A program made the position numbers and the translations under genes. A stretch of 32,162 nucleotides of DNA, from contig PHAW01000006.1 in the NCBI GenBank assembly GCA_002841785.1, forward strand, positions 1 to 32,162. Reading direction: 5' to 3'. Shown here piece after piece: positions 2,812 to 21,094 of the stretch (within the stretch, counting starts at the first letter, position 1; each line of letters opens with the position of its first letter). The notes below the pieces were generated by a model. That model searched no databases and was not told where the DNA came from. It saw only the letters and a program-made list of their open reading frames with translations. Origin of the DNA: Deltaproteobacteria bacterium HGW-Deltaproteobacteria-3 (GTDB lineage: Bacteria > Desulfobacterota > Desulfobulbia > Desulfobulbales > Desulfurivibrionaceae).

Positions 2812-5331
2812 ATGAATATCACAATCAACGGGTATGAAATTGTTGCCGAAGAAGGGATCACCATCCTGGAAGCGGCAAAACGGGCGGATATCCATATTCC
2901 CACTCTCTGCTACGTGAACAAGGGGACTTCGGATATTCCTTGCGAGATCTGCGTGGTCAGCGTGGACGGGATTGAGACGCCGGTGCGCTCCTGTATAACC
3001 CCCGTACAAGAAGGGATGCGGATCACCACCGAGTCCAAGGAATTGCAGGCCAAGCGCGCCGAGCGCATGACCCTCCTGATGGAGACCCATTTCGGCGACT
3101 GCAAAGCTCCTTGCAATCTTACCTGTCCCGGGCAGATCAACGTGCAGGGCTACATCGCCCATGTTGCGAAAGGCCAGTATGAAGAGGCCCTGCGCCTGGT
3201 CATGGAACGCAATCCCTTTCCCTTTTCCGTGGGCCGGGTGTGCCCCCGGTTCTGCGAGACCCGCTGTCGCCGGATTCTTGTGGATGAGCCGGTGTCCATC
3301 AACCATCTCAAGCGCTTTGTCGCTGACTGGTGCATGGCCCACAAGATTGAACTGCGCATCCCCCGTGATGCATCCACCGGCAAAAAAATCGCCGTTATCG
3401 GCGGCGGGCCCTCCGGCTTGACCGGCGCCTACTATCTGGCCCGCAAAGGCCACGATGTCACGGTGTTCGAATCCGCGCCCAAACTTGGCGGCATGTTGCG
3501 CTACGGCATCCCCGACTACAAGATCCCCCAGGATGTGCTTGATTATGAGATCAGCACCATCCTGCGCATGGGAATCAATGTCCGTTTGAGCCAGAAGTGG
3601 GGCGAGGATTTCACCCTGCAATCTCTCAAGGACCAAGGCTACGAGGCCATCCTCATCGCCACCGGCACTCCGGTGGACGAGAGCCTGGATGTTCCGGGTT
3701 GTGCTCTGCCCAAGGTGATCCTGGCTACAAAATTCCTGCGGGATATGTCCGAGGGCAAGGCTGGCAAATACGGCCGCTCCGCCGTGGTTTTTGGCGGTAA
3801 CAATGTGGCCATGGAGGTTGCCCGTTCCTTGTTGCGCAACGAAGTCGGCCAGGTCACCATCATTTATCCCCGGGCCCAGACCGAGATGTCGGCCAACCAG
3901 CGCAATATCCGGGTGGCGGAAAAAGAGGGCGTCCAGTTTCTGCTCATGGCTTCGCCGGTGAACTTCAGCGATACCAATAACGGCATTGCCGTGCAATTGA
4001 TCCGGACCAAGCTTGGTGAGCCCGACGAGAAGGGCATCCGTTACCCCGAGGCGATTCCCGGGTCCACGGTGAACATCAAAGCTGATACCGTCATTGTCGC
4101 GCAGGGCTTAAGCGCCTGCCGCGAGAAATTCGAGGGCGGCGAGTTGGAGTCGACCCTGGAGCTGACCCCGAAATGTAATATCAAGGCCAACCCGAGAACC
4201 TCGCTGACCAACCATCCCGGCATCTACGCGGCCGGTGACGTGACCAGCGGCCCCCGTTCGGTGATCCAGGCCGTGGTTGCGGCTCGGCGGGCAGCGGAGA
4301 ATATCCATGCCCAGGTCATGGGGATTACCAAGACCGTGGCCGAGAGCCGGTTCAACTTCAGCCGGGGTAAGGGCTTCGATGATGTGGATCTGCGGAATTT
4401 CGAGGGTGTCAACATCAAGCTTCGCGAGAAGATGCCCACCCGACCTCCCCAGATCGCCACCCAGGATTTCAGCGAGATCAAGCTCGGGTTTTCGGAACAG
4501 ATGGCAATCACCGAGGCCAAACGCTGCCTCTCCTGCGGCTGTCGCGCCTTTGACCGCTGTGATTTGAAAAAATTGGCCACGGACTTCGGCCTTGATCCAA
4601 GCCGGACCGGGATGGCGGCACAGCCGGTCTATACGGAAAAGATCGCCCATCCTGTGATTCTGGTGGACCTGAACAAGTGCATCTACTGCAAGCGTTGCCA
4701 GAACAGCTGCGAATACAATGCCCTGGAAATCAGCGCCGACGATGTCGATGACAAGGGGCGTCCGGTCGGCTTGCGTTTTAACTTCAAGGAAAACTGTGTC
4801 AATTGTGGCGCCTGTGTGGACAACTGCTCCACCGGGGCCCTGAATAAGAAAGACGTCTTGGTGCCGGTGGTGAACGAGGCCATCCGCGAGGTGCGTTCCA
4901 CCTGTCCTTACTGTGGGGCTGGATGTCAGATCATCCTCAAGGTGAAGGGCAATACCCTGATGGAGGTTACTGCCGATCCGGACCAGGCGCCCAATTACGG
5001 GGCGCTGTGCGTTAAGGGCCGGTTCGGGCATAATTTTGTCCAGCACAAGGACCGTCTGACCAAACCCCTGGTGCGGCGTGGCTCGCAACTGGTGGAGACA
5101 AGCTGGGAAGATGCCTTGAATATTGTGGCCAAGCGTTTCTTCGATATCAAGGCCATGTACGGACCTGATTCCATCTCCGGTTTTAGCTGTGCCAGGGCCA
5201 GTAACGAAGAAAACTATCTGATGCAAAAATTCATGCGGACAGCGATCGGAACGAATAATATCGATCACTGCGCCCGACTCTGACACGCTCCCACGGTGGC
5301 CAGTTTGGCCCTCACCTTCGGCAGCGGCGCA
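2812..5331 (+). CDS. fdhA: Formate dehydrogenase, fused NuoG/GltD-like electron-transfer part (Sec-containing, frame broken downstream)
   Basis: This is the N-terminal part of a very large formate dehydrogenase. Domains in order: a NuoG-type [2Fe-2S] ferredoxin (about 1-80); a GltD-like iron-sulfur region with CNLTC and CPRFC motifs (about 100-180); an FAD/NAD(P)H module with GGGPSG (about 195) and GGNNVA (about 328) dinucleotide motifs; a CLSCGCRAF cysteine patch; two [4Fe-4S] ferredoxin motifs starting CIYCKRC and CVNCGAC; and the CPYCGAGC cluster motif that opens the molybdopterin domain. TGA 5281-5283 is residue 824 in a CARL-U-HAPTV context, the catalytic selenocysteine site. The frame reads on to GSGA (5329-5331), where sequence is missing and the frame shifts. 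ATG 2812 gives the correct ferredoxin start but has no visible ribosome binding site. The likely role is moving electrons between formate/CO2 and NAD(P)H or ferredoxin for the acs pathway. Confidence 0.85.
5281..5316 (+). promoter_or_regulatory. Selenocysteine codon and SECIS-like hairpin, disrupted fdhA
   Basis: UGA at 5281-5283 is followed, after an 11-nt spacer, by a hairpin at 5295-5316 (GGUG...CACC outside, GGCC-AGUUU-GGCC inside, with a bulge). Position and spacing match the intact copy at 24831-24863. The apical loop is AGUUU instead of GGUCU and the stem is interrupted, so SelB binding may be weaker. Confidence 0.6.
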
Positions 5332-5338
5332 CACCAGC

Positions 5339-6862
5339 CATCCCACCATCGGCCTGCGCATTCACCAGGCCGTAGACCGCGGGGCAAAATTGGTGGTGGT
5401 GGACCCCCGCCGGACCAAGCTGGCCGAGCGGGCCGATCTCTGGTTGCGCATCTTGCCCGGCACCGATGTCGCTTTTTTAAACGGCATGATGCAGGTCATT
5501 CTCGAAGAAGAACTCTGGGACAAGAAGTTTGTCGAGGAGCGCACCGAGGATTTTGACGAGCTCGTCCGGCTGGTCAAGAAATATACTCCGGAGATGGTGG
5601 AGAAGATCACCGGCATCAAAGAAGATCAGATGCGCCAGGCCGCCCGGATGTACGCGGCAGAAGGCAGGCACGCTGCTTTCTGGGGTATGGGTATCACCCA
5701 CTATGTCACCGGTACGGACCGGGTGAAATCCATTGCCAACCTGGCCATGCTCTGCGGCAAGATCGGGTTGGAAGGCACCGGCTGCAATCCCCTCCGTGGC
5801 CAGAACAACGTGCAGGGCGCCTGTGACATGGGGGCATTGTTTAATACCCTGCCGGGCTATGGCGGCCTTGAAACTGATGATCTCTTTGACAAGTATGAGA
5901 AGCACTGGGGCATCAAACTCCCACGGCGTCCCGGTAAACCGGCCACCGAGGTCTGGGAAAACGTCTTCAAGGGCCATATCCGCGGCCTCTATGTTTTTGG
6001 TGAGGATCCTGCGGTAGCCGACGCCAATATCGCCCATGTTCAGGCGGCCCTGGAAAAGGTCGATTTTCTGGTGGTTCAGGATATTTTCCTGACCGATACC
6101 GCTAAGATGGCGGATGTAGTGTTGCCCGCCGCCTGTTATGCGGAAAAAGACGGCACTTTTACCTGCACCGAACGGCGGGTCCAGCGGATTCGCAAGGCGG
6201 TTGAGCCGCCGGGCGAGGCCAAACCGGATTGGCAGATCATCTCCATGCTTTCCCAGCGGATGGGCTATCACATGCATTATAATTCCGCTTCGGAGATTTT
6301 TGACGAAATTTGTCAGCTCTTGCCGCAGTACAAGGGACTTTCCTACGAGCGCATTGAAAAGGTGGGCTTACAGTGGCCGGTGCCGGACCAGAATCATCCC
6401 GGCACTGCGGTGTTGCATCGGGAGAAGTTCACCCGCGGTAAGGGGTTGTTTATCCCGGAGGATTACATCCCCCCGGTGGAATTACCCGATGAAGAATATC
6501 CGCTGCTCTTTACCACCGGCCGCGATATTGCCCGGTACAACTTCAGCAGTATGACTGGTAAGACTACGCAGATCGATGAGATCAGCCCTGAGTGTTTTGC
6601 CGAGGTGCATCCCGGGGATGCCCAACGGCTGGGTCTCAAGGAGAAAAACTGGGTTCGGCTTACCTCGCGACGCGGTTCGGTTCAGATGCGGGCCATCATC
6701 ACCGACAAGACCCAGGAAGGTACTATTTTTTGCACCTATAATCATTTGCAGGCGCTGGTGAACATGCTGACCTTGGATGCCTTGGATCGCCTTTCCAGAA
6801 CTCCTGAGTATAAACTCTGCGCCATCAAGGTAGCAGTATTAGGTGATGAGTTGCCGGGTTGA
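5339..6862 (+). CDS. fdhA: Formate dehydrogenase molybdopterin domain, C-terminal part, out of frame with its N-terminus
   Basis: This is the remainder of the molybdo/tungstopterin oxidoreductase, about 507 residues from HPTIGLR to the stop at 6860. It has the PRRTKLAERADL segment, the GxGxTHYVTGTD and PLRGQNNVQGACDMG cofactor-binding motifs, and the C-terminal MopB dinucleotide-binding domain with TGRDIARYNF. Compared with the intact paralogue at 23223-25271, the segment between GSGA and HP (24 residues, including GSNTTEA) is replaced by the 7 nt at 5332-5338. That is a net loss of about 65 nt and a -2 shift. No other stop or shift is seen in either half, so the event is recent or an assembly error. 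If real, no active enzyme is made. Confidence 0.85.
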   Translation, partial: HPTIGLRIHQAVDRGAKLVVVDPRRTKLAERADLWLRILPGTDVAFLNGMMQVILEEELWDKKFVEERTEDFDELVRLVKKYTPEMVEKITGIKEDQMRQAARMYAAEGRHAAFWGMGITHYVTGTDRVKSIANLAMLCGKIGLEGTGCNPLRGQNNVQGACDMGALFNTLPGYGGLETDDLFDKYEKHWGIKLPRRPGKPATEVWENVFKGHIRGLYVFGEDPAVADANIAHVQAALEKVDFLVVQDIFLTDTAKMADVVLPAACYAEKDGTFTCTERRVQRIRKAVEPPGEAKPDWQIISMLSQRMGYHMHYNSASEIFDEICQLLPQYKGLSYERIEKVGLQWPVPDQNHPGTAVLHREKFTRGKGLFIPEDYIPPVELPDEEYPLLFTTGRDIARYNFSSMTGKTTQIDEISPECFAEVHPGDAQRLGLKEKNWVRLTSRRGSVQMRAIITDKTQEGTIFCTYNHLQALVNMLTLDALDRLSRTPEYKLCAIKVAVLGDELPG

Positions 6863-7032: not shown

Positions 7033-10000
7033 ATGGGACAAGCAAAAGATAAAGCTGAGTTGAGCAGCTTGTCTGCTCAAACGAAACTTATGCCCTCTGG
7101 GTATAAAAAATTAGGGACGGTCATGGTCGTCGGCGGCGGTATCGCCGGGGTCCAGGCGGCCCTTGATTTAACCGAGCTTGGCTACTATGTCTATCTGGTA
7201 GAAAAGTCTGCGGCCATTGGCGGAGCCATGGCACAGTTGGATAAAACCTTTCCTACCAACGACTGTTCGCTTTGAATACTCGCGCCTAAGCTGGTAGAGG
7301 CCGGTCGGTCTCCCAATATTGAAATTCTGAGCAACGCTGATTTTCTTTCCCTGGACGGAAAACCAGGCAATTTCACCGCCAAGCTGCGGATGCGTCCGCG
7401 TTATATCGATGCGGACAAGTGCACGGCCTGCGGGCTCTGCACCAAGTACTGCCCACGGCATCTGGTGGATCAGTACAACGAGGGGTTGGCGGTTACGCGG
7501 CCGATCCACATCGATTACGCCCAGGCAGTGCCCGCCACCTATTATATCGATCCGGAGGCGTGCCTGTATCTCAAGCACGGCACCTGCCAGATCTGTGTCT
7601 GCACCTGCCAGAGCAAGGCCATTGATTTCAGCCAGAAGGCTACGGAAAAGGAATTGCAGATCGGTGCGGTGATCATGGCCCCGGGTTTTGGTCGTGTTCC
7701 CGATGAAACCCTGGCCAAGTACAGCTACGGCCAGCATCCGGACGTCATGACCAGCCTGGAGTTCGAGCGACTGCTCTGCGCCTCCGGCCCCTTTGAGGGC
7801 GAGGTCAAGTGCATTTCCGACCGTCGGCATCCCAAGAAAATCGCTTTTATTCAGTGCGTGGGCTCCCGTGATCTCGGCTGCAACAATGGCTACTGCTCCT
7901 CGGTCTGCTGCATGTATGCGATCAAGGAGGCCATGGTTGCCAAGGAACATGATCCCGAGGTGGAGATCACCATCTACTACATGGACATGCGGACCCAGGG
8001 CAAGGGCTTTGATGCCGCCCAGAAGAAGGCAGAATCCATGGGGATCAGGTTTGTCCGGGCCAAGGTGGCTGATGTCATGCCTTGGGACAAGAATCTGAAG
8101 CTGACCTATTCCACCATGGACGGGAAGCACTCTTTTGAGCCCTTTGATATCGTCGTGCTCTCCGTGGGCCTCGACGCTCCGGCCGATGCCAAGAACCTGG
8201 GCGAGATCACCGGTTTTGCCCTGAATGAGTATGATTTCTGCAAGACCGAGACCTTTGCCCCGTTGCTCACCACCAGGCCTGGGGTTATGGTGGCCGGCGC
8301 CTTCCAGGGTCCCAAGGACATCCCGGAAAGCGTCACCCAGTCCAGCGCGGCCGCAGGTATCGCCGCCGGGTTGATTGCCAAGGATCGCGGCAAGGCCCTG
8401 GTGCACAAGACCTATCCCAAGGAGCAGGAAACCGGCAAGGATGAAGAGGTTCGCATCGGCGTTTTTGTTTGCCATTGCGGGATCAACATCGGCAGCGTCG
8501 TCGACGTGCCGGCGGTTGAGCAGTATACGGAAGGGATGGAAGGCGTGGTCTACCATGCCCAGAGTCTGTACAGTTGTTCCCAGGACGCCCAGGAGGTGCT
8601 CAAGGCCAAGATCAAGGAGCATAACCTGAACCGGGTGGTCATTGCTGCCTGTTCTCCGAGAACCCACGAGCCGCTCTTCCAGGAAACCCTGAAGGATGCT
8701 GGCCTGAACCGTTGTCTCTTTGAGATGGTCAATATCCGCGACCACTGCTCCTGGGTCCATGCCAACGAACCGGCGGCCGCGACGCAGAAGTCCAAGGATC
8801 TGGTGCGGATGGGCATTGCCAAGGCCCGTCACATCCAGCCCCTGCCCGAGCAGACCGTGCCGGTTACCAACAAGGCTCTGATTCTTGGTGGCGGGGTGGC
8901 AGGATTGACTGCCGCTTTGACCATTGCCGATCAAGGTTTCCATTCCTATGTGGTCGAAAAGGAAGAGAAGCTTGGCGGCCACCTCCAGCATCTCTCCTAC
9001 ACCCTGCAGGGTGAGACGGTGAGCACGGTTTTGAGCGAGCTGACCGAGAAGGTGAAAAAGAACAAGATGATCGAGGTGCTGACCAGTACTGAAATGACCT
9101 TGGTCAACGGCTTTGTCGGCAATTTCAGCTCGGTGCTCACCACCACTAAGGGCAAGAAAGCCACGGAAACCACCATCGATCATGGGGTGATCATCATCGC
9201 CACCGGCGGCCGCGAGCATCGGCCCGAGATGGTGCTGGGCAACCCGGTGAAGTATTCCGACGCAATAGTTACCCAGCGTGAGCTTGAGCAGCGCTTGGCA
9301 GGCAAGGGCAAGAATCCGGCGCCCAAGTCGGTGGTCATGGTGCAATGCGCCGGTTCCCGGGGGGATGATCTCAACTACTGCAGCAAAGTGTGCTGCAACC
9401 ATGCGGTGAAAAACGCCCTCAAGATCAAATCGCTTGACCCTGCCTCCCAGGTGGTGGTGCTCTACCGCGACATGCGCACCTACGGCTTTGCCGAAGACGC
9501 TTACCGCGAGGCCAGGGAAAAAGGGGTTGTCTTCATCCCCTACACCATGGACAACAGGCCTAAGTTCAAGAGCAGCGGCAAGAAGACCAGCGTTACTTTC
9601 TACGATCCGATCCTCCGCGATGAGGTCACCATGACCCCCGAGGTGCTGACCCTGAGCGTCGGCATCGTGGCCGAAGGAACCGAGGAGATCAGCAAGCTTC
9701 TCAAGGTGCCGGTGAACGAAGACAAGTTCTTCCTTGAGGCCCATGTCAAGCTGCGGCCGGTGGAATTGCCGGTGAGCGGGGTCTATGTCTGCGGCCTGGC
9801 CCATTCGCCCAAGCCGGTGGAGGAGATCATCGTCCAGGCGCAGGCAGCGGCGGCCAAGGCATCCATTCCGCTCTGCAAGGGCTTTGTTTCGGTGGAGCCC
9901 ACCATTTCCTGCGTGGACAAGGAAGCCTGCATCGGCTGCGGCCTGTGCGAATCGCTCTGCCCGTATCAGTCCATCCGGATCATCAAGGACGAAAACGGCA

Positions 10001-10155: not shown

Positions 10156-10737
10156 ATGAGTCAGAACGATTTCAACCCGAAGATCCTGGGTTTTCTCTGC
10201 AACTGGTGCTGCTATGCCGCAGCGGACAGTGCCGGGGTTTCCCGTTACCAGTATCCGCCGAATCTGAGGACCATCCGGGTGATGTGCACCGGGCGTCTTG
10301 ATCCGGCCTTTGTTCTGCGTGGATTCGCCGAAGGCGCCGACGCCATCTTCTCCGGTGGCTGACAACTCGGTGAATGCCATTACCAGGTTGGTAATTACGA
10401 CGCGATGGGTGTGAGTGCAGTGGTGAAAAAGGTTCTGGCCGAGGTCGGGATCAAGCCGGAGCGGTTTGGTCTGCAGTGGGCCTCAGCGGCGGAGGCGCCG
10501 CGCTTTGTCAAACTGATCACCGATTTTACCATGAAGACCAAGGAGCTTGGCCCCATAGGCCAGGCGGAAGGCTTGAGCCCCGAGGAGTTGAAGGTCCGGA
10601 TCGGCAAGGCCCTTGCCCTGGTGAGCGACCGCAAGCTGCGGATCGCCCTGGGCAACGCCACCAAGACCATCCTGAGCAAGACCATCACCGCCGGACTGGA
10701 AGGCGGCGGCGGGGCGGAGGCTGCTGCCAAGAAGTAA
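10156..10737 (+). CDS. mvhD: MvhD/HdrA-associated [2Fe-2S] electron-transfer protein, selenoprotein
   Basis: MvhD passes electrons between a hydrogenase or dehydrogenase and HdrA. It is 193 aa with TGA 10360-10362 read as Sec69. The cluster ligands fall in CNWCCY (about 13-18), MCTGRLD (about 43-49) and GG-U-QLGECHY (67-75). In Cys forms the Sec position is the first cysteine of GCxxGxCHY. The C-terminal tail, about 60 residues, is Ala/Gly/Lys-rich at its end. AGGAG at 10141-10145 sits 10 nt before ATG 10156; a GTG at 10150 is also in frame but only 4 nt from that site. It is probably co-transcribed with hdrA and precedes a hairpin-T terminator. Confidence 0.93.
10360..10395 (+). promoter_or_regulatory. 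Selenocysteine codon and SECIS-like hairpin of mvhD
   Basis: UGA 10360-10362 is followed after 16 nt by a perfect 6-bp hairpin, ATTACC-AGGTT-GGTAAT, at 10379-10395. The GGU in the loop, about 24 nt from the UGA, fits bacterial SECIS elements. Confidence 0.72.
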
Positions 10738-10770
10738 GCGCGGTAAGCAGTACAGAAAAAGATGATCCAA

Positions 10771-10810
10771 CGGGAGGCGCGGACAGTTGTTCGCACCTCC
10801 CGTTTTTTTT
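10771..10810 (+). terminator. Rho-independent terminator after mvhD (repeat copy 1)
   Basis: An 11-bp stem with one mismatch (CGGGAGGCGCG / CGCACCTCCCG, 10771-10802) is followed by eight T (10803-10810), 33 nt after the mvhD stop. Nearly identical copies occur at 21055-21094 and 25374-25412. Copies 1 and 2 also share the AAGATG-TCCA flank upstream. Confidence 0.88.
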
Positions 10811-10874
10811 AAGTAATAAATAGTCGTAGCGACTTTGGCAAATCTAGCCTATAGTTTTTTCCTCTGATTGCTGT

Positions 10875-10911
10875 CGCCTGACATATCAGGAATTTCCTGA
10901 TATGTCAGGCG
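10875..10911. promoter_or_regulatory. Perfect 16-bp inverted repeat made of two palindromic sites; likely activator-binding region
   Basis: The arms CGCCTGACATATCAGG (10875-10890) and their exact complement (10896-10911) are separated by AATTT. Each arm is itself a palindrome of the form CCTGA-N4-TCAGG, giving two sites with centres 19 bp apart. The centre is about 140 bp upstream of the start site predicted from the sigma-54 match, the usual place for an NtrC-family enhancer-binding protein. No T-tract follows, so it is not a terminator. Confidence 0.6.
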
Positions 10912-11007
10912 ATTCCCCTCTCGACGCATTCATCCTCCATTTCGCTATTCTTTCAAGTTCAAATTATTTCAGTATGATGGGAGTTAATCTCCTGGCAACA
11001 ACACTCT

Positions 11008-11022
11008 TGGCACAGATTCTGC
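11008..11022 (+). promoter_or_regulatory. Sigma-54 (RpoN) -24/-12 promoter
   Basis: TGGCACAGATTCTGC matches the consensus TGGCACG-N4-TTGC, with the invariant GG (11009-11010) and GC (11021-11022) at the correct distance. The expected transcript start is about 11034, leaving a leader of nearly 290 nt before the glucan synthase. Confidence 0.7.
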
Positions 11023-11321
11023 TTTTAATAGCAATAGCAAAAAATTAAGCCGAAGTCCAAGCCCAGGCGGATGACACGGATTTAACCATAGTTGAAGCGC
11101 GGGTCAGCTTTTCCTCTCTTGGATGGTGTTGAGGACAAGCAGCTAAAACGCATCCTGCGTGCGAAGTCGGCAACCGCGACATCCTTCCGGTACTATTTCT
11201 CGATCCAGCACTTTGTACAATCTTCTGGAACAGTCCGCACAGTTCCTTTCTGAGTTCTCCGGTCAGATGAAATACTTCATTGTGACAGGATGCTCAGACT
11301 ACGTTGCGTAAAGGATACATC

Positions 11322-14300
11322 GTGGGCGTCGGCATTTTAATTGGTTATTTCGCAAAACATGATGAAGCGCACAAAGCCCTTCGGGAACTGGCGAAGCAGG
11401 GCTTCCGCCGCGCCGCCTTGGTGCATAAGGGGACGAATGGAGATGTTCATACAACAGACCCCTTCCTCTGGCGCCGTGCTTACGGCGTGGTCCTGGCCGC
11501 CATCCTGTCCGGCGGGAGCGCCGGAGTTGTTTTTCTCCTGCTGCACGGGTTGGGTTTGCTTCCGAGCGGCAACTTTTTTCTCCTGACTGTGTTCCTGGCC
11601 GCGATCACAATCTCCGTTTTAGCAGCTCTATTCTGGCTACGACGTTCAAGGTATGGCGTTGAGGCTGGGATCATCCGTGATCACGCCCGCTGGCTTGTGT
11701 CCGGGGAATCCGTTTTAATACTCCTGGCGCCGGTTGAATCTTTACCGCGTCCGGTGGCGTTGCTCCGGGAAAGCGGCGATATTCCACCGGCCCTATTTGT
11801 TATGCATCGCAAATGCGAGCGACGGGTTGAGGCGCGGGGCCACAAGGCACAACTTTCGCCTGCCCAGGTTATTGAGCATGCGCAACGTCATGCCCGGGAG
11901 CAGCAGGTGGACCTGAAGCCGCACCGCGGTTTTGAACTGCTCAAGCGCCTCAAGCAGTCCCGTAAGTGGGTCCACCAAGTATGTACGGATCTTGCCGCGG
12001 CGAGCCGTTTGGAACAGAAAGCCACGCCGGCGGCTGATTGGATCCTTGATAACGAGTACATCCTGGAGGGGAACACCCGTGATGTATTACGGAACCTTCC
12101 CCACCGTTTTTACCAACAACTGCCCACCCTGGCCTCTGATCCCTACAACGGGCTGCCGTGCATCTATGGTCTGGCCAAGGATCTCGTTTCCCATACAGAG
12201 CTGCGCCTTGACCGGGAGAATATCCTGGCGTTTATCGACGCCTACCAATCCGTGCGTACCTTGACCATCGGCGAACTCTGGGCGATCCCCCAGATGCTGC
12301 GCATCGCGCTGATCGAAAGCATCCAGAATCTGGCCGTCACCGCCTTGACCCATCTGCGTGAGCGACAGTTGGCCGATTTCTGGGCGAACCGGTTGATCGC
12401 TTCCAACCGCCGTGATGCCAACCAACTTTTCGCAATCCTGGAGGAACTCGCCACCACGGAATTGCATCCCAGTCCGTATTTTGCTACGCAGTTGGTGGGG
12501 TTACTGTACGACGAGGCCGCCGCATTGGCGCCGGTTAAAAACTGGCTTGAGCGCACACTTAAAACTCCCTTGCATGACCTCAATCTGCGAGAGCAGAACC
12601 GGCAGGTCAGGGAGCAGTTGGCGAGCGGCAATGCCTTCACCAGCTTGCGCCAACTCGCCCTGCTTGACTGGAGGGAGATCTTCGAGCAGCTCAGCCGGGT
12701 GGAGCAGGTGTTGCGTCGCGATCCGTCCGGAATCTATCTTGAAATGGATTTCGCAACCCGCGACCGTTGCCGTCGGGCGATAGAAGACCTTGCCCGCGCT
12801 GCCGGCCAGCCTGAGCAACAGGTCGCCGAGCGTGTCATCACGCTGGCAACCCAGGCAGGGCATGATTCAACAGGAGATGCACAACGCAGCTACGTCGGCA
12901 CCTGGCTGGTCGGCCCGGGACGGGCTGAACTGGTCCGGCTGTTGGCCTGCCATGAGAAGCTCCGTTATCGCATGCTGGAATGGATCTATTGCCATCACCT
13001 CGCCATATACGCCTTCGGCATCGGCGGTTTCTCCGCGCTGTTCGTTTTTCTGATCGTTGTTTTTGGCCTGATCCCCGGCTTCGGCCAGACCGGGCCATCG
13101 CTCGTTATCCAGGCGGGGTTGGTACTGCTCCTGCTCATTCCGGTCAGCCAGTTGGCCATCGAGGTGGTCAATTACCTGATCACCCGATTGTTGCCGCCCC
13201 GCCCCTTGCCCAAGATGGATTTCGAGGATTCCGGAATTCCTGATGCCTTCCGGACCTTGGTGGTCGTGCCGATGATGCTGGCGAATCCGGAAACGATCCG
13301 GAACGAGGCGGAGAAACTGGAAATCCGCTATCTGGCCAACAAGGAAGCAAATCTGTTCTTCAGCCTGTTCTCGGACTACACCGATTCAGCCACGTTTTCC
13401 CGGGAAGAGGACAACGGGCTGCTCGAAATCGCGCGGGCATGCCTGACAGAGCTCAATACACGCCATGGCGGCGAGCGGTTTTTTCTCTTCCATCGGGAGC
13501 GCACCTGGAGCGAATCCGAACAGAAATTTATCGGCTGGGAGCGCAAGCGGGGCAAGCTGGAGGAACTGAACCGGTTGATCGAGGGTACGCGTCCGGAAAA
13601 TGCTCCTGATTTGGTATATGTGGGCGACCCGGACCAATTGGCGGATATCCGTTTCATCATCACCCTGGACAGCGACACCCAGTTGCCGCACGCCTCGGCC
13701 CGTAGACTGGTCGAGACCCTGGCGCATCCCCTCAATCAGCCCCGCTTCGATGCAACAACGGGCAGGATCATGGACGGTTATACCATTATCCAGCCGCGGG
13801 TGAGCCCGACCTTGCCGAGCACGAGCGCCTCGGTCTTCAGCCGGCTTTTCAGCGATGCGGTGGGGATCGACCCCTATACCCAGGCGATTTCCGATGTCTA
13901 TCAGGACTTAAGCGGGGAAGGGTCGTACCATGGCAAGGGGATCTACGATGTCCGCACCTTCAGCCGGGTACTGTCGGGACGGTTCCCGGAAGAGCGGGTG
14001 CTGAGCCATGATCTGCTCGAGGGGGCGCATGTCCGGGTGGGGCTGGCCAGCGATATTGAACTTTTTGATGATTTTCCGCAAGGGTACCAGAGTTACAGCA
14101 AACGGGCCCATCGCTGGATTCGCGGCGACTGGCAGATTGCGGGGTGGATTTTCCCGCGTGTTCCCCTGGCTTCCGGTGAAAAAGTCCCCAACCCGCTCAC
14201 CCTCTTGAACCGCTGGAAGATTCTCGACAACTTGCGCCGCAGCCTTCTGCCTGTTACGAACGTAGGCCTGCTGTTGGCCTCTTGGTTTATTTCCCCGGGA

Positions 14301-17300
14301 ATCGGCGGGGTAGCTGCGCTGGTGGTTGGCATACAACTGCTTTTTCATCCCTTGGCGCAACCATTCACCATAGTTACCACCCGCAAGGGGTTGAGGTATT
14401 TCTCACCTGCCAAGCTGTTGCACGATGTGCTGCGGGCCTTTGTCGATGGTGCGCTGTTGCCGCACCAGGCAGCGGTGGCCCTGGATGCCATCGCCCGGGT
14501 CTGCTACCGCCGCATGATCTCCCAGCGCGACTTGTTGGAGTGGGTGGCCCAGGCCACCCATTGGCGCGCCGACCGTTGGCAGCCGCTCTTTGTCGCAGCC
14601 CTGTCATTTGGAAGCCTCTTCAGCATGATCGTGGGGGCGGCGATCTGGCGCTTCATGCCTGCTAGCCTGCCTGTTGCCATCCCCTGGCTCGTTTTATGGT
14701 TTATTTCCCCACTGCTCGGTTGGCTCCTGAATCTCCGGCCCGCTGAGCAGCCGCGGGAAAAACCGCTGCCGGAAACGGACCGCCGTTTCCTCCGGCAGGT
14801 CGCCCGGCGGACCTGGCGCTATTTCTCTTCCTTTGTCAGCGCCGATACTTCCTGGTTGCCTCCTGATAACTACCAGGTTGCCCATCAGAACAGTCTGGCC
14901 ATGCGAACCAGCCCGACCAACATCGGCCTCTGGATGACCAGCGCTCTGGGCGCCTATGACTCAGGCTACCTGACCATTAACCAGGTCGTGGAAAAGCTTG
15001 CCAATACCATGGCAACCATTGGTCGTCTGGAGCGTTACCAAGGGCATCTTCTCAATTGGTACGATATTCAGACCCTGGTTCCGCTTGAGCCTCGCTATGT
15101 CTCCACGGTTGACAGCGGCAATCTGTTGGGCGCCTTGTGGACTCTGGAGCAGGGGCTTGACGAGTTGACGCACGCTCCCCTCTTGGATGGCAAGGCCTTT
15201 GCCGGCCTGGCCGACACCGGGGAAATCTTGAAACAGGACGCAGCCTTGGAAGAAAATACCGGACTGTATCGCCAAACACTCGACCAGCTCCTGGCTGAAT
15301 GGAAGGCTCCGCCGTCCGGCATCGTCGATCTTCTCCGGTTGCAACGGCGGATGGAGGTCGATGTCAGGGCTTTGGTCGTTGCGGCAGGTGTTAAACCATG
15401 GGTTGGTGAGATTGAGCAACAGGTTGCGGCCTGGGTTCAGAACAGTGACCGCTATCTCACCTGGATCGAGATTCTCGCGGAAAAAACCGCGGAGGAGCTG
15501 GCCCCGCTGGGTTCGGTGGCCCTGCTTGCCATCCAGCATGATCTTGCCAAGGCGCCTTCGCTGCATGATATTGCCCATGACCGGATCGGGTCGATCATGA
15601 TTCTTCGTGCGATCCGCGAGGAATCTCTCCATGCCGGCGATCCCCTAGGCCCCTGGCTAGACCGGGTCTTCAAGGCATTTGCCACTTCGCAGTGGCTGGC
15701 CGGGGAAACCCTGGGAACGGCGACTCGGCTCATTGAGGATGTCCGCGAGTTGTCAGTAGCGCTGGACATGCGATTCCTCTATGACAACGGAAGCAAACTG
15801 TTCTCCATAGGCTTCAATGTTTCCACGGACGTTCTGGACGCTTCCCGTTACGATCTCCTGGCCAGTGAAGCGCGACTCGGTAGTTTCGTTGCCATTGCCC
15901 GGGGTGATATTCCGTTGGAACACTGGTTCTCCATGAGCCGCCTCTACGGCGCCATAGGGAGGCAGCGGGTGCTGCTCAGTTGGGCCGGGACCATGTTTGA
16001 ATACCTGATGCCGCTTTTGTTCCAGTACTCCTATGGCAACTCGCTTTTGGACAAGGCGGCCCGGGAAGCAGTGAGGATCCAGATCGCCTATGGCCGCACG
16101 CGACGGGTGCCGTGGGGTATTTCCGAGTCCGCCTTTGGCAATATGGATCTCAATAAAACCTATCAGTACAAAGCCTTCGGGGTTCCCCTGCTCGGCTTGA
16201 AACGCGGCCTGGAGGAACAACTGGTCATCGCGCCTTATGCCACCTTGCTGGCCTTGAACCTGGCGCCCAGTGAGACCGTGCGGAATCTGAAGCAACTTGC
16301 CGGGTTGGGGCTGCTTGCGGATTATGGGTATTACGAGGCCATGGATTTCAGCCGCCAAACGCAGCGGGTGGGCAAGCGCGGGGTGATAATCAAGACGTAT
16401 ATGGCCCATCACCAGGGCATGGCGTTTCTGGCCTTGACCAACTTCCTGCATGGCAACCCGTTCCCGCGCCGCTTCCATAGCGATCCACGGGTGCGCGCCT
16501 TTGAGGCGCTCCTTCAGGAACGCATCCCGACCCTTCCTGCGCTGCACCTGACCTCAACGCGGGAGAATGAGCCCACGTTGCTGAGCGTAGACCAGATTGC
16601 TCCGGCGGAAAGCATCTTTACCACGCCCCATACCGCCATTCCCCATAGCCTGCTGCTCAGCAACGGCCGCTATGGCGTGATGGTCACCAACAGCGGGGGC
16701 GGCTACAGTCAGTGGGGCGGCCAGGAACTCACCCGCTGGCGGTCGGATCAGACCTGCGATGCAATGGGAACCTTCTGCTACATCCATGAGGCCAATCCGG
16801 ATCGGGTCTGGTCCAGCACCTATCAACCGGCCGATGGGAAGCTGGAGGGGTATTCGGTCAACTTTGCTCTCGACCGGGCCGTGTTCCGGCGTGACGACAA
16901 TGGGCTGCATACCGAAACAGAGGTGATCGTCTCGCCGGAAGATGATGTGGAGATTCGCAGGATTACCTTGATCAACAGGACAACCCGCGCCCGCCATCTT
17001 AACCTCACCAGCTATGTCGAACTCTCCATGGCGCCCCACCGCGCGGATCGCCAGCACCCGGCCTTTAACAAGCTGTTCATCCAGACCGAAGCGCTCCCTG
17101 GGCAGCAAGTTCTCCTTGCCTACCGCAGAGCACGCAGCGAAGACGAGCTGCCTCTGTATGTGGCCCACCGCCTGACCTTTGAGCAGGCAGGGGTTGATGG
17201 CCCGCCTGAAAAAGATTGGCAGTTTGAAACCGACCGGAAACGGTTTATCGGTCGTGGTCACCCCCTTGCCAAACCCATGGGCGCCGTGCAAGAGCTCGGC

Positions 17301-20300
17301 AACAGCCAGGGCTTTGTCTTGGATCCGTGCTTGAGCCTGCGGCGGAGTGTCGTCTTGCAGCCGGGCCAGCACGCTCAGGTTTCCCTGGTGATTGCCGCCG
17401 GTGCAACCCGGGAAAAAGTTTTGCTGTTGATGGATAAATATTCCGAACCCCAGGAGATCAACCGGGCCATGGATTTTGCCTGGGTCTCGGCCCAGCAGCA
17501 GTTGCAGATGCTGCACATTCAGCCCGACGAAGCGCGCCGTTTCCAGCAACTGGCAAGTCACCTGCTGTTTCCCAACCTCCTCTTGCGTGCTGCCGGCGAG
17601 CAACTCGCCGAGAATCGCAAGGGCCAGGCCGGATTGTGGCCCTACGGCATTTCGGGCGACCTGCCCATAGCCCTGGTTACTATTGGGGAGACGCGGGATA
17701 TCAGTCTGGCCCGGCAGATGCTCCAGGCCTACACCTATTGGCGGATGCACGGCTTGTCGGTCGATCTGGTGATCCTCAACGAGGAACCCGGCAGTTATGA
17801 ACGGCCGCTCCAGGAACGATTGGAACGATTGATCCAGGCCCATTCCCTCATGAACGGGACGACCCAACCGGGCGGGATCTTCCTGCGCAATGCCGCGCTC
17901 ATTCCCGAGGAAGATCTGAAGCTCCTCAAGACCGTGGCCAGTGTCATGCTGGTGGCGGCACGCGGCACACTGCCCCAGCAATTGCGGGCGCCGATGGAGG
18001 CGCCTGAGTTGCTGGAAAGGCTGAGCCGAAAACGTGCGGTCCGGGAGCCCTCGGCTCCACTCCCCTTCATGGAGCTGAACTACTTCAACAGCCTTGGGGG
18101 CTTTACCCCGGATGGCCGTGAATACGCGATCTATCTCGGCCCCAATACCAACACCCCGGCACCCTGGGTGAACGTCATCGCCAACCCGACCTTCGGCACC
18201 ATGGTCAGCGAAACCGGGGCCGGCTTTACGTGGTATGGCAACAGCCAGCGCAATCGTCTGACCGGCTGGTCCAACGACCCGGTGCTTGACCCGGCTTCTG
18301 AAGCGCTGTACCTCCGCGACGAGGAAAGCGGCGTATTCTGGTCGCCGACCGCGGCGCCGGTCCGTGAGGAAACCGCCTATCGGGCCCGGCACGGGGCGGG
18401 TTATACGGTCTTCGAGCATAACAGCAACGGGATTGAGCAGGAACTCACCGTCTTCGTTCCGGTGGATGAGAACGGGGGGGTGCCGATCAAGCTCCAGTGT
18501 CTGCGGCTCACCAATGCATCCTCCAGAAGGCGCAGGCTCTCGCTGACCTATTATGTGGAATTGACCCTGGGCGAAAACCGTGAAACCTCGCAGATGCACG
18601 TCCAAACCAACTGGGATGACGAAGCCCAGGCCCTGCTGGGGCAAAACCGCTACCATCCAGAGTACCCGGAGCGGGTCGCCTTCGTGGCCCTGACTCCCCA
18701 GGCCGACTCGTACGGCGGCGACCGCACCGCCTTCATCGGCCGGAATCGCACCTTGGCGAACCCGGCAGCCATGGAACTGACCCACCTTTCACAGCGGACC
18801 GGGGCGGGGCTGGATCCATGCGCAGCACTCCGGGTTACCCTGGAATTGTCGCCGGGTGAGCAACGGGAGATCACCTGTATGCTGGGCCAGGCCGACTCCG
18901 TGGCCCACGCCCGGGAGCTGGTGCTCCGCTTTCAGGAGGAGAATGCTCTGGAAGAGGCGTTCGAGCAGAGCAAAGCGTGGTGGGCTGAACTGCTCGGCAC
19001 CATTGAAGTGCACACCCCGGAACTGGCCGCCGATCTGCTGATCAACCGCTGGCTGCAGTATCAGTCCTTAAGCTGCCGCCTCTGGGGCCGCTCCGCTTTT
19101 TACCAGTCCGGCGGCGCCTTCGGTTTCCGCGATCAGTTGCAGGATGTCCTGGCCTTTCTGTATGCCAGGCCCGAATTGGCCCGCGACCAGATCCTGCTCG
19201 CCGCCAGCAGGCAATTCAAGGAGGGCGATGTCCAGCATTGGTGGCATGAACCTGCCGGGGCAGGAATCCGCTCGCGTATCTCCGACGACCTGCTCTGGCT
19301 TCCATATGTGGTGGCGCAGTATGTCCGGACCACCGGTGATGCGGACCTGCTCAAGGCGGAGGTATCCTTCCTCAACGCTCCCACCCTGGCAGACGATCAG
19401 TATGAGGTGTTTTCCACGCCCGATGTCACCTTTGAACGCGCCACTATTTTTGAGCACTGCCGCCGCGCGGTCAGCCGCGGCCTGACCATCGGGCCCCACG
19501 GCCTTCCCCTGATGGGGACCGGGGATTGGAACGACGGCCTGAATCTGGTGGGCGCCGGGGGCAAGGGGGAGAGCGTCTGGCTCGCCTGGTTCCTTTGCGA
19601 GCTGCTGCAGGGGATGGTCGAAATGTCCAACTTGCTGCAAGAGCCGGAGCTGGGACGAACCTACCAAAAAAAGAGGCAGGACCTGATCCAGAGGGCGGAG
19701 CAGGCGGGCTGGGACGGGGAGTGGTATCTGCGGGGAACCTTCGACGATGGTTCTCCCCTTGGCTCCGCGGAAAACACCGAGGCGCGGATCGATTCCCTGC
19801 CCCAATCGTGGGCCTGGCTTTCCGGCGCCGCCGATCCGGCACGGGCGGAGCAGGGACTTGAGTCGGCCTGGAACCATCTTGTCCGTGAAGATGAAGGGCT
19901 GGTGCTGCTTTTTGCGCCTCCCTTCGACACATCCGAACCCTCGCCCGGCTACATCAAGGGCTATCCTCCCGGCGTGCGGGAGAATGGCGGCCAGTACACG
20001 CACGCCGCCTTATGGATGGCCATGGCCATGGCCCGCAAAGGGGAGGGGGAGCGGGCGGTGCAACTGCTGCGCATGCTCAATCCCATCGAGCACGCCCGCG
20101 ATGCCGAGGCGGTCTGGCATTACGGGGTTGAGCCCTACGTGGTCGCGGCAGATGTCTACCGGTTGCCCGGAAGGATAGGGCAGGGAGGCTGGTCGTGGTA
20201 TACCGGGGCGGCGGCCTGGATGTACCGGGCCTGGGTGGAAGAGGTGCTGGGCCTGCACATCCGGGACGGGCGGATGCGGGTGAATCCGGTCATCCCCGCG

Positions 20301-20534
20301 TCCTGGCCTGGCTTCAGCCTTAGCTATCGACACGGGGAAACGGTCTATGCGATCCAGGTGGAGAATCCGCACGGCTGCGAGTGCGGGGTTGCCTGGGTGG
20401 AGATGGATGGCCAGCGGGTGGCCGGGGGGGTGATCTATCTGGAGCGGGATTTAGTGAAACATCGGGTCGTGGTCAGGATGGGGGAGAGGCAAGAACCGAG
20501 TGAAGATGGAAAAGTACATCCGGTTATGGTATAA
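11322..20534 (+). CDS. ndvB: Cyclic beta-1,2-glucan synthase (GT84 plus GH94), giant membrane protein
   Basis: The enzyme polymerises UDP-glucose into cyclic beta-1,2-glucan, which acts in the periplasm (osmoadaptation, envelope). It is about 3070 aa. Approximate layout: N-terminal extra domain with two membrane helices (about 1-200); membrane pair at 560-630; GT84 glycosyltransferase with the DSDTQ motif near 785 and RAHRWIRGDWQ near 930; further helices at 970-1010 and 1085-1145; a glucoamylase-like domain (about 1160-1720) with DSGNLLGAL and WAGTMFEYLMP; and two GH94-type beta-sandwich/phosphorylase regions ending in GTGDWNDG near 2735, where the GH94 catalytic Asp lies. Proteobacterial homologues are about 2850 aa, so the N-terminus is the surplus. 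GTG 11322 is preferred: AAAGGA lies 6 nt ahead. TTG 11304 is the longer alternative. Preceded by a sigma-54 promoter. Confidence 0.93.
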   Translation: MGVGILIGYFAKHDEAHKALRELAKQGFRRAALVHKGTNGDVHTTDPFLWRRAYGVVLAAILSGGSAGVVFLLLHGLGLLPSGNFFLLTVFLAAITISVLAALFWLRRSRYGVEAGIIRDHARWLVSGESVLILLAPVESLPRPVALLRESGDIPPALFVMHRKCERRVEARGHKAQLSPAQVIEHAQRHAREQQVDLKPHRGFELLKRLKQSRKWVHQVCTDLAAASRLEQKATPAADWILDNEYILEGNTRDVLRNLPHRFYQQLPTLASDPYNGLPCIYGLAKDLVSHTELRLDRENILAFIDAYQSVRTLTIGELWAIPQMLRIALIESIQNLAVTALTHLRERQLADFWANRLIASNRRDANQLFAILEELATTELHPSPYFATQLVGLLYDEAAALAPVKNWLERTLKTPLHDLNLREQNRQVREQLASGNAFTSLRQLALLDWREIFEQLSRVEQVLRRDPSGIYLEMDFATRDRCRRAIEDLARAAGQPEQQVAERVITLATQAGHDSTGDAQRSYVGTWLVGPGRAELVRLLACHEKLRYRMLEWIYCHHLAIYAFGIGGFSALFVFLIVVFGLIPGFGQTGPSLVIQAGLVLLLLIPVSQLAIEVVNYLITRLLPPRPLPKMDFEDSGIPDAFRTLVVVPMMLANPETIRNEAEKLEIRYLANKEANLFFSLFSDYTDSATFSREEDNGLLEIARACLTELNTRHGGERFFLFHRERTWSESEQKFIGWERKRGKLEELNRLIEGTRPENAPDLVYVGDPDQLADIRFIITLDSDTQLPHASARRLVETLAHPLNQPRFDATTGRIMDGYTIIQPRVSPTLPSTSASVFSRLFSDAVGIDPYTQAISDVYQDLSGEGSYHGKGIYDVRTFSRVLSGRFPEERVLSHDLLEGAHVRVGLASDIELFDDFPQGYQSYSKRAHRWIRGDWQIAGWIFPRVPLASGEKVPNPLTLLNRWKILDNLRRSLLPVTNVGLLLASWFISPGIGGVAALVVGIQLLFHPLAQPFTIVTTRKGLRYFSPAKLLHDVLRAFVDGALLPHQAAVALDAIARVCYRRMISQRDLLEWVAQATHWRADRWQPLFVAALSFGSLFSMIVGAAIWRFMPASLPVAIPWLVLWFISPLLGWLLNLRPAEQPREKPLPETDRRFLRQVARRTWRYFSSFVSADTSWLPPDNYQVAHQNSLAMRTSPTNIGLWMTSALGAYDSGYLTINQVVEKLANTMATIGRLERYQGHLLNWYDIQTLVPLEPRYVSTVDSGNLLGALWTLEQGLDELTHAPLLDGKAFAGLADTGEILKQDAALEENTGLYRQTLDQLLAEWKAPPSGIVDLLRLQRRMEVDVRALVVAAGVKPWVGEIEQQVAAWVQNSDRYLTWIEILAEKTAEELAPLGSVALLAIQHDLAKAPSLHDIAHDRIGSIMILRAIREESLHAGDPLGPWLDRVFKAFATSQWLAGETLGTATRLIEDVRELSVALDMRFLYDNGSKLFSIGFNVSTDVLDASRYDLLASEARLGSFVAIARGDIPLEHWFSMSRLYGAIGRQRVLLSWAGTMFEYLMPLLFQYSYGNSLLDKAAREAVRIQIAYGRTRRVPWGISESAFGNMDLNKTYQYKAFGVPLLGLKRGLEEQLVIAPYATLLALNLAPSETVRNLKQLAGLGLLADYGYYEAMDFSRQTQRVGKRGVIIKTYMAHHQGMAFLALTNFLHGNPFPRRFHSDPRVRAFEALLQERIPTLPALHLTSTRENEPTLLSVDQIAPAESIFTTPHTAIPHSLLLSNGRYGVMVTNSGGGYSQWGGQELTRWRSDQTCDAMGTFCYIHEANPDRVWSSTYQPADGKLEGYSVNFALDRAVFRRDDNGLHTETEVIVSPEDDVEIRRITLINRTTRARHLNLTSYVELSMAPHRADRQHPAFNKLFIQTEALPGQQVLLAYRRARSEDELPLYVAHRLTFEQAGVDGPPEKDWQFETDRKRFIGRGHPLAKPMGAVQELGNSQGFVLDPCLSLRRSVVLQPGQHAQVSLVIAAGATREKVLLLMDKYSEPQEINRAMDFAWVSAQQQLQMLHIQPDEARRFQQLASHLLFPNLLLRAAGEQLAENRKGQAGLWPYGISGDLPIALVTIGETRDISLARQMLQAYTYWRMHGLSVDLVILNEEPGSYERPLQERLERLIQAHSLMNGTTQPGGIFLRNAALIPEEDLKLLKTVASVMLVAARGTLPQQLRAPMEAPELLERLSRKRAVREPSAPLPFMELNYFNSLGGFTPDGREYAIYLGPNTNTPAPWVNVIANPTFGTMVSETGAGFTWYGNSQRNRLTGWSNDPVLDPASEALYLRDEESGVFWSPTAAPVREETAYRARHGAGYTVFEHNSNGIEQELTVFVPVDENGGVPIKLQCLRLTNASSRRRRLSLTYYVELTLGENRETSQMHVQTNWDDEAQALLGQNRYHPEYPERVAFVALTPQADSYGGDRTAFIGRNRTLANPAAMELTHLSQRTGAGLDPCAALRVTLELSPGEQREITCMLGQADSVAHARELVLRFQEENALEEAFEQSKAWWAELLGTIEVHTPELAADLLINRWLQYQSLSCRLWGRSAFYQSGGAFGFRDQLQDVLAFLYARPELARDQILLAASRQFKEGDVQHWWHEPAGAGIRSRISDDLLWLPYVVAQYVRTTGDADLLKAEVSFLNAPTLADDQYEVFSTPDVTFERATIFEHCRRAVSRGLTIGPHGLPLMGTGDWNDGLNLVGAGGKGESVWLAWFLCELLQGMVEMSNLLQEPELGRTYQKKRQDLIQRAEQAGWDGEWYLRGTFDDGSPLGSAENTEARIDSLPQSWAWLSGAADPARAEQGLESAWNHLVREDEGLVLLFAPPFDTSEPSPGYIKGYPPGVRENGGQYTHAALWMAMAMARKGEGERAVQLLRMLNPIEHARDAEAVWHYGVEPYVVAADVYRLPGRIGQGGWSWYTGAAAWMYRAWVEEVLGLHIRDGRMRVNPVIPASWPGFSLSYRHGETVYAIQVENPHGCECGVAWVEMDGQRVAGGVIYLERDLVKHRVVVRMGERQEPSEDGKVHPVMV

Positions 20535-20570: not shown

Positions 20571-21002
20571 ATGAAGCGTTTTTTGATCGCAATAGCGGTG
20601 GCCGCGGCCACAGTTACCACCCCTGCACTGGCTGCCGACGTTGGCGTCTCGGTCAGCATCGGCCAACCCGGTTTCTATGGCCGGATTGACATCGGAGACT
20701 ACCCGCAGCCACGGGTGCTCTACCGTCAGCCGATAATCGTTGAACGGGTGCAGGTTGTCCGTCCCCCGGTCTATCTGCGCGTACCGCCGGGCCATGCCAA
20801 AAATTGGAAAAAGCACTGCCGCGAATACAATGCCTGCGGCGAACGCGTCTTTTTTGTGCATGACGACTGGTACGAGCGCGAGTATGTCCCGCGTTATCAG
20901 GAAAAACATCGTGACCGCCGGGATGATGATCATGGGAGGGACAAGAAAAACGGCAAGGGGCATGGCAAGGGCAACGGCAAGGATCATGACCGCGGCCGCT
21001 AA
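20571..21002 (+). CDS. Small secreted basic protein of unknown function
   Basis: It is 143 aa. Residues 1-22 form a clear Sec signal peptide: MKRF, a hydrophobic Ala/Val core, then a PALAA cleavage site. The mature part has a Tyr/Arg/Pro-rich stretch (about 40-70), a motif PPGHAKNWKKHCREYNACGERV with two cysteines, and a low-complexity tail of Lys, Gly, His and Asp repeats from about 110. I recognise no enzyme motif; an envelope or periplasmic role is likely. AGGAG at 20559-20563 precedes ATG 20571 by 7 nt. It follows the glucan synthase directly and has its own candidate promoter. A hairpin-T terminator follows. Confidence 0.82.
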   Translation: MKRFLIAIAVAAATVTTPALAADVGVSVSIGQPGFYGRIDIGDYPQPRVLYRQPIIVERVQVVRPPVYLRVPPGHAKNWKKHCREYNACGERVFFVHDDWYEREYVPRYQEKHRDRRDDDHGRDKKNGKGHGKGNGKDHDRGR

Positions 21003-21054
21003 GGCGGTAGCCGAGAGGTAAGCGCTGCAAATAGCAGGGAAGAAGATGTTCCAG

Positions 21055-21094
21055 CGGGAGGCGCGGATGGTTGTTCGCACCTCCCGTTTTTTTT
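21055..21094 (+). terminator. Rho-independent terminator after the small secreted protein (repeat copy 2)
   Basis: The stem CGGGAGGCGCG / CGCACCTCCCG (21055-21086, one mismatch) is followed by eight T (21087-21094). It separates + strand genes from the convergent - strand formate dehydrogenase operon and is almost identical to the copy at 10771. Confidence 0.88.

Follow-up and report, generated by a model that had tools for sequence, protein, structure and literature searches.

The window analyzed here is the whole stretch of 32,162 nucleotides from contig PHAW01000006.1 of Deltaproteobacteria bacterium HGW-Deltaproteobacteria-3. The genome is 2.85 Mb in 388 contigs and is 85% complete; all genomes compared were MAGs. 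The window encodes ndvB, preceded by an upstream gene with its own terminator and followed by a small gene that is probably in the same operon (Table 1). The ndvB product combines glycosyltransferase, glycoamylase-like, and GH94 modules in a single polypeptide, the architecture of the NdvB/Cgs cyclic beta-1,2-glucan synthases. These domains and the match to solved synthases agree with the original prediction that the gene encodes a cyclic glucan synthase. Translation likely starts at GTG 11322 rather than at TTG 11304, judging from the ribosome-binding site AAAGGA at 11310.

Table 1. Features of the ndvB control region and neighboring genes (positions in the window)
Feature	Position	Strand	Remarks
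Intrinsic terminator of upstream gene, ahead of control region	10771..10808	+	
Perfect 39-bp palindrome, predicted double activator site	10874..10912	.	Fully complementary 19-bp arms separated by 1 nt
Dyad 1, CCTGACATATCAGG, predicted to bind a dimer of an enhancer-binding protein	10877..10890	.	Conserved in 54 distinct sites
Dyad 2, CCTGATATGTCAGG, predicted to bind a dimer of an enhancer-binding protein	10896..10909	.	Conserved in 54 distinct sites
IHF-like core CAA-N4-TT in AT-rich spacer block (tentative)	10960..10968	+	Core in 23 of 54 sites, under half
Sigma-54 -24/-12 promoter element TGGCACAGATTCTGCT	11008..11023	+	Predicted start near 11034; same spacing at other sites
Predicted ndvB 5' leader	11034..11321	+	288 nt; proximal half also conserved in G016
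ndvB, cyclic beta-1,2-glucan synthase	11322..20534	+	PF10091, PF06165, PF17167; 1875 bits against the solved synthases 8rf9 and 8rf0
Small secreted basic protein, probably same operon as ndvB	20571..21002	+	No Pfam match

A direct repeat of 93 bp (82% identical; 10718-10810 and 21002-21094, plus strand) flanks ndvB and the small downstream gene. Both copies carry the same terminator hairpin. Nowhere else in the genome does the terminator core occur, and this points to an inserted or duplicated block.

Three other genes on the plus strand of the window contain an in-frame TGA. An HdrA-like gene has one at 7273-7275 (TNDCSL-U-ILAPKLVE), and the MvhD-like gene that follows it has one at 10360-10362 (SGG-U-QLGECH), each where Cys is usual. 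Both products are probable selenocysteine proteins. A formate-dehydrogenase-like gene at about 5281-5390 also probably encodes selenocysteine (HCARL-U-HAPTV). Its frame breaks soon after the TGA, from a frameshift or an assembly error.

The control region upstream of ndvB contains two CCTGA-N4-TCAGG dyads and a -24/-12 element. The original prediction described the dyads as a perfect 16-bp inverted repeat. Both sites are present as described; the repeat itself is larger, with the two dyads (14 bp each, 19 bp from center to center) forming the halves of a 39-bp palindrome. The window has two copies of the dyad motif where 0.03 would be expected, a number that none of the shuffles reached. Dyad 2 lies 98 bp from the sigma-54 element and about 112 bp from the -12 GC, in keeping with the predicted distance of about 115 bp. 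The dyads are thus at the distance of upstream activator sequences (about 100-200 bp upstream), and they are conserved along with the promoter. Read with one more nucleotide, the element is TTGGCACAGATTCTGCT (11007-11023), with the canonical GG-N10-GC. When TGGCACAGATTCTGCT was scored on its flanks, 7 of 8 positions agreed with the consensus. Matches to the -24/-12 element with up to three mismatches numbered 60 in the window, against 59.7 expected. On its own, the match is at chance level and unremarkable, and the case therefore rests wholly on its pairing with the dyads and on conservation. The combination of the dyads with the element is far beyond chance. The genome also contains an rpoN gene.

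The pairing recurs in this genome and in its relatives. The palindrome is present in five copies in the genome, and each of these double dyads has a TGGCAC...TGC element 98-100 bp away on one side. Three genomes of the same genus (G004, G007, and G014) contain 15 further double dyads. Across the four genomes, a sigma-54 element lies at 97-101 bp in 20 of 20 cases. Among 97 relatives searched with up to two mismatches, double dyads were found only in these four genomes. The original prediction made its case depend on conservation in relatives. The two elements recur as a pair with constant spacing, ahead of ndvB in three species and ahead of some 50 other genes, and the predicted layout of a sigma-54 element with activator dyads upstream is supported.

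We scanned 84,980 species genomes for the exact motif, leaving the promoter out of the pattern, and retrieved 42 stretches with 45 sites. Nine of the sites were in MAGs titled Desulfobulbaceae, Desulfurivibrio sp., or Deltaproteobacteria, apparently those of G007, G004, and G014. The remaining sites were in MAGs titled Nitrospirae, Nitrospiraceae, or Thermodesulfovibrio-type, with one titled just "bacterium." Among these species, the double dyad is confined to the Desulfobulbales group and to MAGs that are nearly all Nitrospirota. A sigma-54 element lies 96-101 bp from the dyad at all 43 scanned sites with sufficient flanking DNA; two sites at a contig or stored-sequence edge were left out of this count. 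Only 74 of 75,482 random positions in the same loci (0.1%) have an element at this spacing. The consensus of the dyads over 54 distinct sites is CTGAYATRTCAG, with conservation in the scanned set partly imposed by the search pattern. No plasmid relatives of the promoter were found. In one scanned locus (L090, 1194-1226), a single double dyad is flanked by two sigma-54 elements, one per side, at distances of 97 and 98 bp. It is apparently one symmetric enhancer for two divergent promoters.

The spacer between the dyads and the promoter was not part of the search pattern, and its conservation is not imposed by the scan. It contains an AT-rich block, conserved over the 54 sites, about 30-53 nt before the -24 element. 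An IHF-like core is located 38-50 nt ahead of the -24 element in 23 of the 54 sites; shuffles gave a mean of 1.3 and a maximum of 5. The genome contains three HU/IHF-family genes, possible candidates for IHF.

Among the relatives, those with ndvB are G007, G014, G016, G023, and G004, whose copy is truncated at a contig end. The dyads and the sigma-54 element lie upstream of ndvB in G007 and G014, and ndvB has the site in all three testable genomes that carry the activator described below. In G016, from the same genus, ndvB follows the same upstream gene and terminator, but the genome encodes no orthologue of that activator and the locus has neither the dyads nor the sigma-54 element. At the sequence level, these loci are a natural on/off comparison. 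In G023 (L069, G023:C36), the sequence ahead of ndvB is different and resembles a transposase gene where the sigma-54 control region would otherwise be.

A second, basal promoter near ndvB is possible, because the proximal leader is also kept in G016 despite the lack of a sigma-54 element there. The double-dyad site might then first drive something else, such as a small RNA or the leader, with ndvB transcribed mainly from the basal promoter. The 288-nt length of the leader and its conserved proximal half fit this arrangement. We consider it unlikely, since no Rfam family was found in the window, the leader has no unusual structure, and three species keep the site ahead of ndvB, G014 among them despite its different upstream neighborhood. 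In the favored reading, the sigma-54 promoter would dominate over any basal promoter at ndvB.

A genome search for the dyad pair had been proposed as a route to the regulator, and it led to a candidate enhancer-binding protein linked to the dyads. In G007, a set of three genes lies immediately before one dyad. The first encodes a hybrid kinase of 1,104 amino acids (PAS-PAS-HisKA-HATPase-REC-REC-HPt). The second, at L042:12878-14401 on the minus strand, encodes a REC-AAA+-Fis protein of 507 amino acids with a GAFTGA motif, and the third encodes a PAS-AAA+-Fis protein of 578 amino acids. The candidate activators match PF00072, PF00158, and PF02954, the domains of NtrC-type proteins, and GAFTGA is present in P0002 and P0003. 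Nine scanned loci, of which six are from Nitrospirota, have a homologous activator gene whose end is no more than about 30 bp from a double dyad. Within the genus, activators with more than 70% identity are encoded by G004, G007, G014, and G015. In the HGW-Deltaproteobacteria-3 genome, the activator and the kinase are seen solely as contig-end fragments; the N terminus of the kinase is at the edge of contig C248 (93% identity over 411 amino acids). Activator orthologues track the dyads, occurring in just the dyad-bearing genomes of the genus. The dyad of G015 is degenerate, a 32-bp double dyad CCTGATATGCCAGCAAATTCCGGCATATCAGG located after its activator gene and followed by TTGGCATACATTCTGC.

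The likely activators of the double dyads are thus, from linkage and co-occurrence, the NtrC-type enhancer-binding proteins encoded beside the hybrid kinase. The control region could also be genuine and yet be bound by another enhancer-binding protein, with the linked pair merely a target or a neighbor. A first look found 118 enhancer-binding-protein-like candidates in the genome, and adjacency alone is not binding. This reading appears improbable to us, as the linked activator gene directly precedes a dyad in nine loci from two phyla and, within the genus, is present where the dyads are. Known alternatives also fit poorly: the PEP-CTERM box motif is of the TTTACA type, and the NtrC and PrsR models score well below the cut-off.

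The palindrome folds as a very stable hairpin (z -7.7) and is repeated five times in the genome, but the view that it is a terminator, a REP/MITE-like element, or a transposon end near a chance -24/-12 match is highly implausible and was ruled out, given the missing T-tract, the terminator already present after the upstream gene, and a sigma-54 element at 96-101 bp from each copy that could be tested, a spacing reached by 0.1% of random positions.

The genes just downstream of the sites include those for NdvB, VWA-OmpA proteins, an ice-binding-like lipoprotein, DUF5670 operons, and BON lipoproteins. Further families are CsbD, LTXXQ (Spy/CpxP-like), entericidin, Usp, CHRD, PRC-barrel, YflT, and ABM-domain proteins. 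Such families are typical of envelope-stress and general-stress regulons. The original prediction spoke of nitrogen- or stress-type sigma-54 control. The targets fit the stress type; the nitrogen type is unsupported. No nitrogen-metabolism family is present among the 25 targets shown. Identically built sigma-54 switches, present in a few sulfate-reducing relatives and in the distant Nitrospirota, probably switch on cell-envelope and stress genes together.

By every testable feature, the control region combines a sigma-54 promoter and an NtrC-type activator site. We think it very probable that 10874-11023 is a complete sigma-54 control region, activated by the linked NtrC-type pair and running an envelope/stress regulon that includes ndvB. 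Two NtrC-type activator dimers would bind the two dyads of the palindrome at about -157 to -125. The spacer DNA would loop, perhaps aided by an IHF/HU-type bend. The activator hexamer would then hydrolyze ATP and open the RNA polymerase-sigma54 complex at the -24/-12 element, and the ndvB transcript is predicted to begin near 11034. The most likely activator is the tandem REC-AAA+-Fis and PAS-AAA+-Fis pair beside the PAS-PAS hybrid kinase (HisKA-REC-REC-HPt), which would pass an inducing signal through a phosphorelay. The circuit would govern an envelope-protective and stress regulon, with the cyclic glucan synthase as one member.

The activators of this genus and of Nitrospirota form one clade (support of 99/98), apart from the tested activators of the rest of the family and order. 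The kinase of G007 is 84% identical over 918 amino acids to that of a Thermodesulfovibrionia MAG. These two similarities suggest transfer between the phyla, in one direction or the other. An ABC-transporter ATPase gene beside the regulon (G000:C312, 31399-32079) is closely similar by eye to one in L107, from a Thermodesulfovibrionales MAG, which is consistent with transfer of a larger block. Tentatively, and with some doubt on our part, an entire stress circuit may have moved between Nitrospirota and one Desulfobulbales genus. It would comprise the hybrid-kinase phosphorelay, two sister activators with near-identical DNA-binding domains, and the double-dyad/sigma-54 cassette. The cassette would have been placed before resident envelope genes such as ndvB, with sigma-54 in the role that RpoS, SigB, or EcfG has elsewhere.

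The system shares with NtrC-family sigma-54 promoters the -24/-12 element and two dyads about 125-157 bp upstream of the start, and with NtrC-family activators the AAA+ domain with GAFTGA and the receiver and Fis domains. It differs in the dyad consensus, the 19-bp center spacing, and the 96-101-bp gap, which are unmatched to any described activator, and in its two sister activators (REC and PAS versions) with a shared HTH. The PEP-CTERM box with PrsK/PrsR similarly combines a sigma-54 element and an upstream activator motif at many single-gene, cell-exterior targets, but its motif 1 contains TTTACA and its spacer is near 63 nt (PMC1569441), and both motif and spacing differ here. Identity with that regulon was ruled out; the sites have no TTTACA-type motif, and PEP_resp_reg scores below the cut-off. 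Desulfovibrio vulgaris, a sulfate reducer, also has sigma-54 activators tied to envelope and general stress, with regulons such as those of DVU3305, DVU1419, and DVU3381; the text of that report gives no motif like the one here, with neither a TCAGG nor a CCTGA string (PMC4641369).

In the literature searched, mostly without subscription journals, we found no description of ndvB/cgs under sigma-54 control or of a sigma-54 regulon with such targets. The dyad strings gave nothing in literature text beyond a match in an ulvan-degradation paper. The regulon is apparently undescribed, and its novelty lies in the motif, the regulator, the set of targets, and its occurrence in two phyla.

For a sigma-54 regulon in two mostly uncultured groups, the analysis defines a sharp motif, lists targets, and puts forward a candidate regulator. 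The ndvB loci with and without the cassette offer a natural experiment on the recruitment of resident genes by a shared regulator. Cyclic glucan synthesis is grouped here with envelope-stress genes, and the role of cyclic glucans outside rhizobia thereby becomes testable.
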